From Bdellovibrionia bacterium (GTDB lineage: Bacteria > Bdellovibrionota > Bdellovibrionia > Bdellovibrionales > UBA1609): 36,848 bases of DNA. The stretch spans positions 1 through 36,848 of the forward strand of contig JAUILT010000022.1 of NCBI GenBank assembly GCA_030432925.1, read 5' to 3'. Positions 6,371 to 30,557 of this stretch are shown here, in pieces. How positions within the stretch are numbered: position 1 is the stretch's first letter; each line of letters begins with the position of its first letter. Position numbers and translations under genes: made by a program. The notes below the pieces were generated by a model, which searched no databases, was not told the origin of the DNA, and was given only the letters and a program-made list of their open reading frames with translations.

Positions 6371-6525
6371 ACGACACTAGGCAGCGATGACGCGTTAGAT
6401 CTTTTCTGGCTTTAGGTCGAGGAGAAGACTAGACTTTCCCTTGAGTCTATGGCGCATCTTGTTGCAGGTGGTATTAAGATACTATAAATTAAAGGTTGGA
6501 TGCTATTACTCTTTCTGGGGGCTTT
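6371..6525 (+). promoter_or_regulatory. Intergenic region with promoter candidate for the LysM transglycosylase
   Basis: The 155 bases between the two transglycosylase genes contain TTGTTG (6459-6464), an 18-base spacer and TATAAA (6483-6488), a fair sigma-70-type pair. A short inverted repeat TAGACT/AGTCTA around 6429-6449 has no T-tract, so it is a weak terminator at best. I see no small gene here. Confidence 0.4.
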
Positions 6526-8364
6526 ATGGTTCTGAAGAGATTTCTCTTCGTATTGATAGGTGTGTCTCTCACCTTGGGCTGCAGTTCTATGCAGCGCAGT
6601 TCTTCTGGAAATGAAGAAGCAGCTCGTGAGACGGCCATCAGCAGTTCAGAGGTTTCTTCATCAGATGTGGAATCCCAACTGAGGCAACCTTATAAAAGCT
6701 CTTTAGGAGATGTGCCGCTCACAGATAATAAAATGTCACGTATGTGGGTGAAGTACTTTTTAGGACGAGGGCGTCGACATATGGATCGTTACCTGGCCAG
6801 GTCCTCCCGGTATATTCCAATGATGAAGAATGTCCTCCGTGAAGAGGGGCTCCCTGAGGACCTTGTCTATGTGGCATTGATTGAGTCTGGCTTTAGTCCC
6901 AAGGCCCATTCTCGAGCCAACGCTGTGGGGTATTGGCAATTCATTCGAAGTACTGGTAAGAGTTTTGGACTGCGTATTGACGGTTACATTGATGAAAGAA
7001 GAGATCCGGTTTTGTCGACCCGTGCGGCAGCGGCCTACTTTAAAGCTCTTTACAACCTTTTTGGATCTTGGCATTTGTCGTTGGCAGCTTATAATACTGG
7101 TGAAAACCGGGTTAAAAACCGGGTGATGCGTTACTACACCCGGGACTTTTGGGAGTTAGCTCGTCGAAGAGCTTTACCTCGGGAAACTAGAAATTACGTT
7201 CCTAAGTTTATTGCAGCAGCCATGATTGCCAAGTCGCCAGAATCTTATGGATTTAGCAGTGTTTCTTATGAACAACCACTGGCCTACGATGCTGTAGAGG
7301 CATCAAACCCCATTAGCTTAAAGGCTCTTTCCGCACGATTGGGTGTGGACCACAAAGAGATCCAGCGACTGAATCCCAAATTCCGAGGGGACTATGTGCC
7401 CAATTACAAGGGTGATAAAATGATGATCCGGGTACCAAGAGGATATCAGGCTCAGGCGGTGGCCGCTATTCCAGCAGTCAAAATAGATCGTCCGAAATAC
7501 GTTTACAGAGACCATTATTACTATCGAGTTCGTCGTGGCGATACTTTGGGGCATATTGCTCGTAGGCATAGAACTACGGTGGGGACACTTCGTCGCTTGA
7601 ATGGAATGGGTCGTCGCTCAATGATTCGAATCGGTCAGCGATTGAAAGTTCCTGAGCGTGGTGGGTTTGCTAAGCATCGTGTGGCCGCCTCTAGTTCTTC
7701 TTCAAAAGTTGTCAGTAGTAATGCCTCCTATCATACGGTTCGTCGGGGTGAGAACCTCACTTTGATTGCTCGGAAGTACGGGGTGTCGGTGCAAAGATTG
7801 AAAAGGCTAAATCACCTGAACAAAAGAGCCCTTTTGAGAGTGGGGCAAAGGTTAAAATTAAAAGAGGAGAGCCCTTCTAACTCTGATAGTCGACCCTATA
7901 GAAGTCAGCATGTCGTTCAGCGAGGTGAGAACCTCTCTTTGATTGCCAAAAAATATAGGGTATCTGTTCAGTCCTTAAAGCAAGTGAATCGCTTAGGTCG
8001 TAGATCTATTCTTCGAGTGGGTCAAAAACTGAAGATTCCAGAGGGTAGCAAAACCCCTCAGAAGATGGCTAAAAAAGTGTATCACCAAGTGAAATCAGGT
8101 GAAAATCTGACTCTGATCGCTAGAAAGTACGGAGTCCGTGTTGCGGAACTCCGCAGTGTCAATGACATAGGTAGGAGGTCTGTTTTGTATGTTGGCAAGA
8201 GGCTCAGAGTTCCCGTGGACAATATTCATGTGGTGCAACGGGGAGAGAACCTATCTCTTATTGCGGATAAATATAACATCTCTGTTCATAAAATTGTCAA
8301 AGCCAATAACCTCAGGCAAAAAAGTTTAATCGCCGCTGGTCAGGCATTGGTTATTCCGGATTAA
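6526..8364 (+). CDS. mltD: MltD-like membrane-bound lytic transglycosylase lipoprotein with five LysM repeats
   Basis: About 612 residues from ATG 6526. That start gives a lipoprotein signal, MVLKRFLFVLIGVSLTLGC, with the lipid-modified Cys at position 19; an upstream TTG at 6496 would spoil it. The catalytic domain (about 95-240) shows VALIESGFSPKAHS with catalytic Glu120, AVGYWQFIRSTGK and LSLAAYNTGENRV, the MltD pattern. A degenerate LysM-like stretch (about 255-305) precedes five clear LysM repeats beginning near residues 330, 402, 462, 519 and 567, each opening with a variant of HVVQRGENLSLIA. LysM binds glycan-linked GlcNAc. E. coli MltD has fewer repeats, so this is an expanded version. 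It is likely an outer-membrane lipoprotein acting on peptidoglycan. Confidence 0.93.
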   Translation: MVLKRFLFVLIGVSLTLGCSSMQRSSSGNEEAARETAISSSEVSSSDVESQLRQPYKSSLGDVPLTDNKMSRMWVKYFLGRGRRHMDRYLARSSRYIPMMKNVLREEGLPEDLVYVALIESGFSPKAHSRANAVGYWQFIRSTGKSFGLRIDGYIDERRDPVLSTRAAAAYFKALYNLFGSWHLSLAAYNTGENRVKNRVMRYYTRDFWELARRRALPRETRNYVPKFIAAAMIAKSPESYGFSSVSYEQPLAYDAVEASNPISLKALSARLGVDHKEIQRLNPKFRGDYVPNYKGDKMMIRVPRGYQAQAVAAIPAVKIDRPKYVYRDHYYYRVRRGDTLGHIARRHRTTVGTLRRLNGMGRRSMIRIGQRLKVPERGGFAKHRVAASSSSSKVVSSNASYHTVRRGENLTLIARKYGVSVQRLKRLNHLNKRALLRVGQRLKLKEESPSNSDSRPYRSQHVVQRGENLSLIAKKYRVSVQSLKQVNRLGRRSILRVGQKLKIPEGSKTPQKMAKKVYHQVKSGENLTLIARKYGVRVAELRSVNDIGRRSVLYVGKRLRVPVDNIHVVQRGENLSLIADKYNISVHKIVKANNLRQKSLIAAGQALVIPD

Positions 8365-8383: not shown

Positions 8384-8415
8384 TAAAAAAACCCGCCGTG
8401 TTCCTGACGGCGGGT
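8384..8415 (-). terminator. Strong intrinsic terminator of the c-di-GMP riboswitch RNA
   Basis: On the minus strand, a perfect 9-bp stem ACCCGCCGT/ACGGCGGGT with a 7-base loop is followed directly by seven T residues. The + strand reading lacks a T-tract, so the terminator serves the minus-strand RNA and not the LysM gene that ends at 8364. Confidence 0.95.
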
Positions 8416-8455
8416 AAGAGTTGTTTCCTCTCGTTGTTCATACCAATAGCTTTCT

Positions 8456-8540
8456 CTTTGGCAACCCGGCCAGCGTAGCCCTTAAGGACTTTAGCTCCGA
8501 AGGTTTTGCGTCCCGCCCTTTCGATGACGGTATGCCTTGA
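8456..8540 (-). promoter_or_regulatory. Cyclic di-GMP-I riboswitch aptamer (GEMM-I)
   Basis: Read on the minus strand, the segment matches the GEMM-I core piece by piece. It has AAGGCATACC, then a stem capped by a GAAA tetraloop (ATCGAAAGGGCGG), the highly conserved GGGACGCAAA, CCTTCGGAGCTAAAG, a second hairpin AGTCC-TTAA-GGGCT, and the closing strand GCCGGGTTGCC, which pairs GGCA with TGCC. These correspond in order to the Vibrio cholerae Vc2 aptamer, including the tetraloop and the CTAA receptor-side sequence. The family binds bis-(3'-5')-cyclic di-GMP. Here the aptamer is followed by a 40-base linker and a terminator but no coding sequence, so ordinary cis control of a downstream gene is not evident. 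Confidence 0.93.
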
Positions 8541-8756
8541 GCAAAGAAAGGAACCAGCTCGTGAGAGTGAATTCCGTTTCGAGAGTTCTCTCTCCACCTC
8601 CTTTGGTTGGGTTTAGGGAACTTTCCTTATTCCCGACAGTCGACGTGCTATTAAATAGAGTCTTTCAAGCCCTCATTACTCCGGTGGCGGATCAAGTCGC
8701 CAGTACCGTGGCAATCGCATCGCATCCCCCTTCTTCTAAGGTTTAACAAACTCGGT

Positions 8757-8785
8757 TTATTCAGTATAATGCAGTTTGTCATTTA
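8757..8785 (-). promoter_or_regulatory. Candidate promoter of the riboswitch RNA
   Basis: On the minus strand TATACT (8768-8763) is a good -10 hexamer, but its -35 region is weak. The same stretch also reads TAAA (8785-8782), 17 bases, then CTGAATAA (8764-8757), which resembles a flagellar sigma (FliA) promoter except that the spacing is about two bases longer than the classic TAAA-N15-GCCGATAA. The start would fall near 8755. Confidence 0.45.
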
Positions 8786-8859: not shown

Positions 8860-9636
8860 TTATAGAAGGTGATTAGCGAGTTGAGAAAAGCCTTGGGCTG
8901 TGGCTGATTGGGGATGGCTTTCTACAATGGGAATGCCGGCTTCACTTGAAAGCCCCACATTGGGTTCAAAGGGAAGCTCTGCTAACTTTGGAATTTTATG
9001 GGTTTCCAACCAGGTATTGAGTTCTCCTCGCGGGAATAAGCTTTGAGGTTCAGCCTCAGGTGTGGCCTTAAAATAGGCCATATTTTCCACAACTCCCAAG
9101 AGGGGAACATTGATTTGGTCGAACATATTGATGGCTTTTTTAGCATCTACCAGAGCCACATTTTGGGGGGTGCAAATCACGATGGCTCCATTGACAGGTA
9201 CTTTTTGGGCCACTGTGAGCGCAATATCCCCCGTTCCAGGAGGAAGATCAATAAGTAGGTAATCGAGCTCTCCCCAGTCCACATCGCGGAAAAACTGATC
9301 CATGGCCTTGAATAACATAGGGCCTCTCCAGACCATGGCTTGATTTTCATCGACAAGAAAGCCCATGCTCATTAGTTTTAAACCCTGCCTGGTGAGAGGT
9401 TGAATTTTATTGTCATCGTTATTGATAGCTGGTTTTTGCCCAAGGGCTCCCATCATGCGAGGTAAACTGGGGCCGTAAATATCAGCATCTAGTAAGCCTA
9501 CTTTTTGACCTTTATTTTTTAGTGCGCAAGCAAGGTTTACGGTGACCGTACTTTTTCCAACACCGCCTTTGCCTGAACCGATAACAATAATGTTTTTGAT
9601 ACCTTCAATGGGCTTTTGTTGATCAAATGGGTTCAT
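8860..9636 (-). CDS. mrp: Mrp/ApbC-family Fe-S cluster carrier ATPase lacking the CxxC motif
   Basis: 258 residues of the MinD/Mrp P-loop family. The deviant Walker A GSGKGGVGKST includes signature Lys23 and Lys28. DADIYGPSLPRMMG, VWRGPML, LIDLPPGTGD and STPQ-like CTPQNVALVDAKK follow, all Mrp hallmarks. The family scaffolds or transfers Fe-S clusters through a Cys-x-x-Cys shortly after the ENMSYF motif. Here the motif reads ENMAYFKATPEAEPQSLF with no Cys at all, and the only cysteines in the protein are two isolated ones upstream. Either this member carries no bridging cluster or it uses other ligands. It stands alone on the minus strand, divergent from the membrane J-like gene. Confidence 0.92.
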   Translation of the reverse strand: MNPFDQQKPIEGIKNIIVIGSGKGGVGKSTVTVNLACALKNKGQKVGLLDADIYGPSLPRMMGALGQKPAINNDDNKIQPLTRQGLKLMSMGFLVDENQAMVWRGPMLFKAMDQFFRDVDWGELDYLLIDLPPGTGDIALTVAQKVPVNGAIVICTPQNVALVDAKKAINMFDQINVPLLGVVENMAYFKATPEAEPQSLFPRGELNTWLETHKIPKLAELPFEPNVGLSSEAGIPIVESHPQSATAQGFSQLANHLL

Positions 9637-9686
9637 ATCCAGTACACTCCCGGTTGTCCACAGAGTTCTTGCTAAACTCCGTGGGG

Positions 9687-10094
9687 ATGATGATAATCAA
9701 GGCTGTGGAAGATATATCAACCAATTTCTATCTCCTCAATGCCCTTGTCGTTGTTGGACTGATTATTTACCTGCTTTGGAGAAAACCTCAGTCTCGCCTG
9801 GGGGCGTCCTCCAGAAGTTTATCCAAAAAGGGCCTAAAAGAGCTAGCCCGGGAATTGGAAGATATGGAAAAAACTCCAGATAGGGAACCTCCCCAGGAGG
9901 AGATTCAACTGAACGTCATGTTCAACTGGAACGGCCACTCGTGGGATGCTTATGAGGTCTTAGGTATTCCCGCGGGTAGTAACCTCAATCAGGTAACAAA
10001 GGCCTATGAGGAGGAAATGGTTAAAATGGATGAGGAGTCTCGGGCTTTTATTCAAAAGGCCTATCAGGCCATTATGACACAGAGGAATGGCTGA
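9687..10094 (+). CDS. Small membrane protein with degenerate J-like domain
   Basis: About 135 residues from ATG 9687. An in-frame ATG at 9627 would overlap the divergent mrp start and lacks support. An N-terminal membrane helix (YLLNALVVVGLIIYLLW) is followed by a charged linker. The C-terminal segment, WDAYEVLGIPAGSNLNQVTK, then AYEEEMVKMDEESRAFIQKA, follows the helix pattern of a DnaJ J-domain. The HPD tripeptide that stimulates Hsp70 is absent; KMDEESR occupies its place. It is therefore unlikely to be a standard Hsp70 cochaperone and may be an adaptor. It is encoded head to head with mrp, so the two may share a regulatory region. The precise role is unknown. Confidence 0.7.
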   Translation: MMIIKAVEDISTNFYLLNALVVVGLIIYLLWRKPQSRLGASSRSLSKKGLKELARELEDMEKTPDREPPQEEIQLNVMFNWNGHSWDAYEVLGIPAGSNLNQVTKAYEEEMVKMDEESRAFIQKAYQAIMTQRNG

Positions 10095-28973: not shown

Positions 28974-30557
28974 ATGCAAATGACAGCATTGATCACTCAT
29001 ATGATGAGTCTATTCGTGGGCCTGGGGCTCGGAATCGGCGCTTTTTTCCTGTACAGAAATATGTTGGATGAGAAAAAGAGAAATGAGGCTAAAAAAGAGG
29101 CCAACAGAATTATTAACAAAGCCAAATCTCAGGCCACTAGGATTGAGAAAGAATCCAAATCTAAGGCCAAAGATTTTGAAAACCGAGCCCGGAGAAACGC
29201 CGAGGGCGACATTAAAAAGCAAAAACAGCGGCTACAGAGCCAGGAGCAGTCCTTTCGTGATAAAGAGGGGCGCCTGGAAAAGGATTATCGAGACAAAGAG
29301 GAGAAACTGCAGCAGCGTATGAGAGAGCTAGATGGACAAAGCGAAGAACTCAAGGTCTTGGAAGGTCGGATTAAAGATAATGAGGGAAGACTTCTGGGGC
29401 AGGTTGAGGAACTATCGCAAAAATTAGAGTCCGTAGCGGGGTACACTAAGGAGCAGGCCAAAGGTGAATTGATGGCAGCCCTGACAAAAGATGCCAAGGA
29501 AGAGGCTGCCACAATGATTCAAGAGATCGAAAGCTCTGCAAGAAAAGAAGCTCAGCAAAAGGCAAAGTACGCACTGGCTGTGGCTGTCAGTCGCTATGCC
29601 TCAGAGGTGGCAACAGAAAAAACCACCTCATCCATTCCGTTGTCAGGTGAGGAAATGAAGGGAAAAATCATTGGTCGGGAAGGGCGCAACATTCGGGCAT
29701 TAGAGGCCGCTTGTGGTGTGGATTTGATTATCGATGAAACTCCGGAATCTGTGATTATTTCTAGTTTTGACTCTGTTAGAAGAGAGGTTGCTCGTCTTTC
29801 TCTAAAAAAACTGATGGAAGATGGTCGAGTCCATCCAGGTCGTATTGAAGAGGTGGTTTCTAAAGTCAAATCAGAGCTTTTTGAGAGTATGAAAGAAGAT
29901 GGTGAGAAAGCCTGCTTTGACTTGGGAGTTCATGGATTGCACCCCAAATTGATTCATTTGATTGGAGAGCTAAAGTTTCGACATGCGGAAAGCCAGAATC
30001 TTTTGGCTCACTCTCAGGAAGTCGCTTATATTGCCGGCCTCATTGCCGCTGAAATTGGCGCAGATGTGAATAAAGCCAAGCGAGCAGGATTATTACATGC
30101 GGTGGGGAGAGCATTAGATCACTCCCACCTGGGGAGTTACGCTAAAGCCGGTGCAGATTTTATTAAAAAGCATGGTGAAAAAGGGGACGTCTGCCACGCA
30201 GTTTTAGCTCATAACGGGAACGAAGAGCCTCAATCGGCTCTAGCACATATTGTTCAGGCAGCTCACAATCTTGCCCGATCAAGGCCAGGAGCTAATCGTA
30301 GTATGATTGAAAACTTCATCAAAAGACTATCGGATTTGGAATCTGTTGCGAATAGCTTCGATGGTGTTTCCAGAACTTTTGCTATTCAATCGGGTAAGGA
30401 GATTCGTGTATTGGTGGACTCTGGTAAAGTGACTGATGAACAGTCACAGATGCTGTCTCGGGATATTGCTCGAAAAATTGAGAAAGAATTGAGTTACTCT
30501 GGTCAGGTCAAGGTGAATGTCTTGCGAGAAACCCGTATTGTGGAACATGCGAGGTGA
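28974..30557 (+). CDS. rny: RNase Y homologue with degenerate HD catalytic motif
   Basis: 527 residues in the order of RNase Y: an N-terminal membrane helix (about 7-27), a long basic coiled coil (30-215), a KH domain with [20 protein letters not shown], and an HD-type domain. Flanking motifs are intact: [33 protein letters not shown] and the C-terminal [10 protein letters not shown]. The metal-binding core is not. LLHDIGKA of the family reads LLHAVGRA (His375, Ala376 in place of Asp), the paired HH is His413-Asn414, and the later Asp of AAD is His431; the first His (346) remains. RNase Y cleaves mRNA at the membrane; this copy may be inactive or altered. It is followed by tyrS after seven bases. 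Confidence 0.92.

Follow-up and report, generated by a model that had tools for sequence, protein, structure and literature searches.

The merRNA locus of a Bdellovibrionia bacterium: a free-standing c-di-GMP-I aptamer probably sharing its transcript with a conserved micropeptide message

Introduction

The closest described system is merRNA of Bdellovibrio bacteriovorus HD100, a 445-nt RNA mapped to positions 1,073,741-1,074,185 of the minus strand (Karunker et al. 2013, PMC3627812), which reaches about 2 million RPKM in the attack phase and is 5000-fold lower in the growth phase, its attack-phase RNA-seq reads being about as numerous as those of all the Bdellovibrio protein-coding genes together. 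It was described there as non-coding, without a conserved open reading frame (ORF) downstream of its riboswitch, and conservation outside the Bdellovibrio lineage was not found (PMC3627812). What merRNA does has been an open issue ever since its description in 2013; the present analysis gives it a phylogeny and a second conserved function, that of a predicted micropeptide.

The window, i.e. the whole stretch of DNA analysed here, comprises 36,848 nucleotides from a Bdellovibrionia bacterium. The features of the merRNA locus within it are collected in Table 1.

Results

The aptamer and its transcript

The initial annotation had placed a c-di-GMP-I (GEMM-I) aptamer at 8456-8540 of the minus strand; Infernal with the Rfam model (cmscan) returned it at 8546-8457, the earlier bounds thus being right within a few bases. 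The match to RF01051 scores 67.1 bits (gathering threshold 35; E 3.3e-11) and covers the full-length model, i.e. all 87 positions from 1 to 87, with no broken pairs. The alignment preserves the core intact, namely the GG of GGCA, GACGCAAA, the CC of UGCC and the GNRA loop, a core that includes the ligand-contacting bases. The aptamer is single-copy, being the sole above-threshold match in the 3.04-Mb, 96%-complete genome.

The 40-base linker and strong terminator claimed to follow were also recovered, the linker measuring 41 nt and the intrinsic terminator having a stem at 8415-8391 (minus strand) of 9 pairs, 7 of them G-C, followed by TTTTTTT. The next feature is indeed the 3' end of an opposite-strand gene, the convergent gene for a protein with an SLT domain and five LysM domains, which ends at 8364. 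There is no sense ORF between the aptamer and the terminator in the window, and the aptamer is not placed for cis control of a downstream gene, the terminator coming first and the convergent gene after it. The statement that there is no ORF for the switch to control holds for the downstream side only, since the RNA also contains, 5' of the aptamer, a conserved small ORF under selection.

Concerning the 5' end, a block TGC(G/A)NTATNCT is common to the relatives at the place of the promoter -10 region; the -35 region of the window is weak and the start site is placed from the sequence at about 8756. The extended -10 element ending at 8763 thus predicts an RNA of ~370 nt that runs on the minus strand from about 8756 to 8384. 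A FliA-type attack-phase promoter was considered as well; visual inspection of the window showed none, and its promoter looks sigma70-like.

Table 1 Features of the merRNA locus in the window
Feature	Position	Strand	Basis
Promoter -10 region, extended -10 type, TGCATTATACT	8763..8773	-	sequence; hexamer TATACT 8768-8763
Shine-Dalgarno (SD) site AAGGGGG	8726..8732	-	sequence; the listed relatives also have a G-rich SD ahead of their small ORF
Small ORF MRLPRYWRLDPPPE-stop, 14 aa	8676..8720	-	sequence, relatives, codon-position test
Hairpin GGGAA[UAAGGAAAG]UUCCC, GGA in loop	8616..8634	-	sequence; GGA-in-loop enrichment
GGAGG block without start codon	8597..8601	-	recurs in the class ~45-60 nt 5' of the aptamer
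c-di-GMP-I (GEMM-I) aptamer	8457..8546	-	RF01051, 67.1 bits
Intrinsic terminator ACCCGCCGT-CAGGAAC-ACGGCGGGT plus T7	8384..8415	-	sequence
Mrp/ApbC-type P-loop ATPase (mrp), complete, syntenic upstream neighbour	8860..9636	-	PF10609, E 2e-94
Lytic transglycosylase with LysM repeats (MltD-like), convergent neighbour	6496..8364	+	PF01464, PF01476

Several pairings that could make the RNA switch between two states were considered. An alternative pairing of aptamer and terminator in the window (P2 GGCGGG with CCCGCC) was rejected on inspection, as the relatives do not keep it. RNAalifold suggests helices that join the GGAGG block or extend P1; a switch made of the long-range helix of this block and the extended P1 was dismissed on the swaps of pairing partners between genera (P 0.93 and 0.90 in the window's group). 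Such swaps support P1 in family f2 alone (P 0.003) and lend no support to a ligand-dependent rearrangement.

Two further genes of the window may be mentioned. The divergent neighbour of mrp (9627-10094, plus strand) has a conserved NVxFNxNGHxWDAYEVLG motif without a Pfam match, and its product is seemingly restricted to Bdellovibrionales. The gene at 28974-30557 (plus strand) encodes RNase Y (RNase_Y_N plus an HD domain), which could be involved in the turnover of merRNA.

Orthology to merRNA and spread across the phylum

The likeness to merRNA noted in the initial annotation was upheld by comparison of synteny with HD100. Genome G073 agrees with the HD100 coordinates, and its sole aptamer, at 1,073,951-1,073,868, falls within the published merRNA; mrp is located upstream on the same strand in both, 314 nt upstream in the window and at -1233 to -466 in HD100. 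The window likewise has, at the same locus, a terminated RNA that lies between genes and contains one c-di-GMP-I aptamer. Given the position of the HD100 aptamer and the mrp/LysM synteny within the class, the window RNA is, on sequence grounds, an orthologue of B. bacteriovorus merRNA and not a look-alike. As for a downstream conserved ORF, the window has none and carries a conserved ORF upstream instead, whereas the small ORFs of HD100 flank the aptamer on both sides.

It should be pointed out that merRNA is not confined to Bdellovibrio and occurs across the order and the phylum, with a c-di-GMP-I aptamer in 116 of the 291 genomes of the phylum and exactly one per carrier. All the 75 loci of the window's class exhibit a strong terminator-like hairpin downstream of the aptamer, and at 69 of them mrp, the LysM transglycosylase or both are found nearby—mrp upstream and co-directional in 47, the transglycosylase downstream and convergent in 43. 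In the remaining families the RNA is positioned upstream of queE (35 of 46 loci); an ordinary cis riboswitch of queE was rejected for these, an intrinsic terminator lying between aptamer and queE in most, and the RNA therefore appears to be stand-alone at the queE loci, too. At the queE-type loci L103-L143, TTTCAAAGGGGGG could compete with the aptamer P1 strand CCCCCTTTGAAAA, and TGAAGAGG/CCTCTTCA flank the aptamer, as in a possible two-state RNA. Many contigs of this type (e.g. L109, L120, L126, L137 and L141) start 350-540 bases 5' of the aptamer, as if at a repeat or an assembly obstacle.

Small ORFs on both sides of the aptamer

The small ORF of the window is opened by AAGGGGG-N5-ATG ~35 nt past the predicted RNA start, upstream of the aptamer; in relatives it reads MHLTPRDWCLDPPPK-stop, MSKLPKEWLLDPPPK-stop, MPKDLRLDPPPE-stop and MIGSPRDFNLDPPPK-stop. 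An SD site with a small ORF, as captured by one expression, is present at 49 of the 75 class loci, a recognisable version being missing from about a third. Across the D-P-P-P codons of 23 LDPPP-type sequences, departures from the column majority number 1, 1 and 43 at codon positions 1, 2 and 3, respectively; the test gives P of about 1e-18 under independence, the sequences sharing descent. Even allowing for that descent, the 1/1/43 pattern is, at the level of codon positions, the mark of a translated frame. The strict codon pattern LDPPP[KE]-stop, which recovers the ORF of the window, matches 16 of the 141 genomes of the order at 17 places (control, 4 matches), and the matches examined sit in such an RNA.

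The motif varies between families. In family f7 it occurs in tandem copies, and several LDPPP-type ORFs precede one aptamer at G188:C25:77393-77502 (L072, L213, L214), two of them strict copies and a diverged third reading MKLHSKQWNLFPPPI-stop. The version of family f2 (Bdellovibrionaceae) is [KR]xR[IV][FHY][DN]H[HNR]D[EK]xPK-stop, with LVDPAPE-stop and LADPKPK-stop as intermediates. The HD100 upstream ORF MRTHEHHDDELK, at about 1,074,121-1,074,083 inside the mapped merRNA, has lost the prolines, so that homology across the families rests on position, SD site, length and the intermediate forms.

The f2 genomes possess an additional element between aptamer and terminator, ATGGAAGG...GATTGGTTTCATTCCCCTTA, read as ME(G)...DWFHSP-stop, which is represented in HD100 by MEGTNTYKDWFHSP (about 1,073,832-1,073,788, inside the mapped merRNA) and is lacking in the window's family. 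Its spacing ranges from 27 to 51 nt and the frame is kept in 14 of 16 distinct genus/distance cases. Within the last 16 nt, synonymous variation occurs once only and the core GGTTTCATTCC is fixed at the nucleotide level; a role at the RNA level is therefore at least as likely as a coding one.

Separate loss of the modules

Five genomes (G216, G182, G283, G136 and G057) have kept the promoter, the SD site, the small ORF and the terminator, with no aptamer detectable in them even at E 0.1. In four of the five, mrp precedes the small ORF by 0.2-1.3 kb in the same orientation, which places the ORF at the merRNA locus. One such locus (L197, minus strand, G136:C76:23949-23969) shows, in this order, promoter, SD site, MYLPKDLNLDPPPK-stop, terminator and the convergent LysM gene. 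The opposite situation, an aptamer without the LDPPP-type ORF, is seen in genus g6 of the window's family and in family f5. As each module occurs without the other, the ORF is more than a by-product of the aptamer, and the separation of the two in evolution argues against either being a mere scaffold for its partner.

The lineages without the RNA that were read have no related small ORF downstream of mrp, and in several of them mrp directly adjoins the convergent LysM gene. Loss of the aptamer through lost c-di-GMP synthesis was rejected, the aptamer-less genomes retaining 4-6 GGDEF proteins. A Guanidine-III riboswitch match (47.6 bits) was encountered near the query gene at L194:4723-4785 (minus strand).

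GGA loops and CsrA

In the flanks of the class merRNAs, with one sequence per genus that are still not independent, GGA is found in predicted hairpin loops 30 times against 10.7 in shuffles, ranking first of the 64 trinucleotides (z about 3 to 6). The excess concerns both the 5' flank (11 against 4.5) and the 3' flank (19 against 5.0), and no enrichment was seen in other intergenic DNA (0 against 1.6) or coding DNA (7 against 7.8) of the same loci. Judging by its sequence, the window RNA has three such loops, GGGAA[UAAGGAAAG]UUCCC, ACC[AAAGGA]GGU and GAG[AGGAAACAA]CUC, and one also occurs in an aptamer-less relative. CsrA is encoded in 272 of the 291 genomes, including the present one (G000; PF02599, E 4e-25). 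The loop enrichment together with the near-universal CsrA makes a CsrA-titrating role testable; the loops would fit an RNA predicted to titrate CsrA and are no proof of it.

Discussion

Proposed function and its alternatives

The aptamer, the terminator, the missing sense gene, the merRNA orthology and the coding selection on the small ORF are established at the level of sequence, and it appears reasonably probable that the merRNA of the window is a dual-function RNA, at once the mRNA of a micropeptide and a free-standing c-di-GMP-binding RNA acting in trans. A discrete RNA of the predicted length would be made from its own promoter and end at its own terminator, its 5' part serving as message for a conserved 14-residue micropeptide ending in LDPPP[K/E] and its 3' part forming an isolated c-di-GMP-I aptamer without a gene to switch. 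Free-swimming cells would presumably produce it in large amounts, as HD100 does, ribosomes would translate the small ORF, and the aptamer part would bind c-di-GMP and act in trans, either as a buffer of this ligand or as a ligand-gated RNA titrating an RNA-binding protein, for which CsrA is the best candidate. Reading the RNA as a gene-less riboswitch would tell half the story, because it is also the putative message of a conserved micropeptide. Against the dual function speak the predicted peptide length of only 14 residues, the roughly one third of class loci without a recognisable ORF and the HD100 version without prolines; the leader ORF might also be kept to protect the RNA rather than for a useful peptide. 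The broader proposal of a dual-function RNA throughout the phylum, its aptamer gating CsrA titration (or peptide production), is held here as a tentative and rather unlikely one.

Of the alternatives, the pure c-di-GMP reservoir proposed in 2013—a non-coding RNA that holds the ligand by mass action and releases it when attack gives way to growth—agrees with the HD100 expression (about 2 million RPKM in the attack phase, then the 5000-fold fall), with the stand-alone, single-copy aptamer throughout the phylum and with the fact that no sense gene follows it in the window. The reservoir has, however, no need of a small ORF that is under coding selection and outlives the aptamer, and a store alone leaves the conserved flanks and GGA loops unexplained, so that it seems doubtful as the full account; since the conserved micropeptide survives in lineages without the sensor, the window RNA is probably not merely a passive store. 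The same loops are the main argument for a c-di-GMP-gated CsrA sponge, in which they would bind CsrA and the ligand would alter either their display or the life-time of the RNA: they are enriched in the flanks and not in the intergenic and coding controls, CsrA is nearly ubiquitous (272/291), and three loops are present in the window and one in an aptamer-less relative. Considering that the per-genus sequences are not independent, that the GGA count per RNA is modest in comparison with CsrB and that partner swaps do not support a ligand-dependent rearrangement, such a sponge may be regarded as a possible but not very likely explanation.

The aptamer could also govern how the small ORFs of its own RNA are translated or how long they last, the upstream one in the window and those on both sides in Bdellovibrionaceae. 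The second ORF of f2 (in HD100 MEGTNTYKDWFHSP), located between aptamer and terminator and in frame in 14 of 16 cases, would suit this idea, and a part of the f2 start element, GGAAG, can pair beside the aptamer; yet the core GGTTTCATTCC of that ORF is fixed also at the nucleotide level, the ORF is missing in the window's family, a downstream aptamer controlling an ORF 130 nt upstream would be unusual, and versions without aptamer as well as versions without ORF exist. A riboswitch for micropeptides is thus considered unlikely. Many c-di-GMP-I switches act via terminators, a mode that would suit an ordinary cis riboswitch with the terminator as its off state and read-through into an unseen gene. 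Downstream, however, a transcript would run antisense into a conserved convergent gene, both in the window and at 43 class loci, and the aptamer P1 and the terminator arm share no strand, which makes this explanation extremely improbable.

In the searchable literature, which lacks most subscription journals, there appears to be no earlier account of the coding module, of variants without the aptamer or of a spread across the phylum. With natural variants lacking one module or the other now known for merRNA, the reservoir model becomes testable against the coding and CsrA models in a tractable predator. If the broader proposal with a gating aptamer is true, a riboswitch without a gene would serve as sensor for an RNA that acts in trans and also gives rise to a peptide.

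Comparison with known systems

With the sRNAs of the CsrB/RsmZ type, the window RNA shares predicted GGA hairpin loops, a strong terminator and CsrA in the genome; those RNAs, however, are non-coding, have no ligand aptamer and usually carry more GGA repeats, and CsrA binding by the present RNA is a prediction. The B12 riboswitches with uORFs from Mycobacterium tuberculosis (PMC11260477) likewise combine an aptamer and a small ORF in one transcript, although a large regulated gene follows there, whereas the window RNA ends. The riboswitches of RF01051 (variant RF03167) have the same aptamer sequence and fold as that of the window; members of RF01051 are annotated as cis-regulatory, while the window aptamer has no gene in cis. 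The closest counterpart remains the merRNA of HD100 (PMC3627812), which differs from the window RNA with regard to the LDPPPE-type small ORF present in the window, the DWFHSP ORF absent downstream there and the different terminator, and resembles it in the c-di-GMP-I aptamer, the discrete terminated RNA, the upstream mrp on the same strand and the absence of a downstream protein gene.
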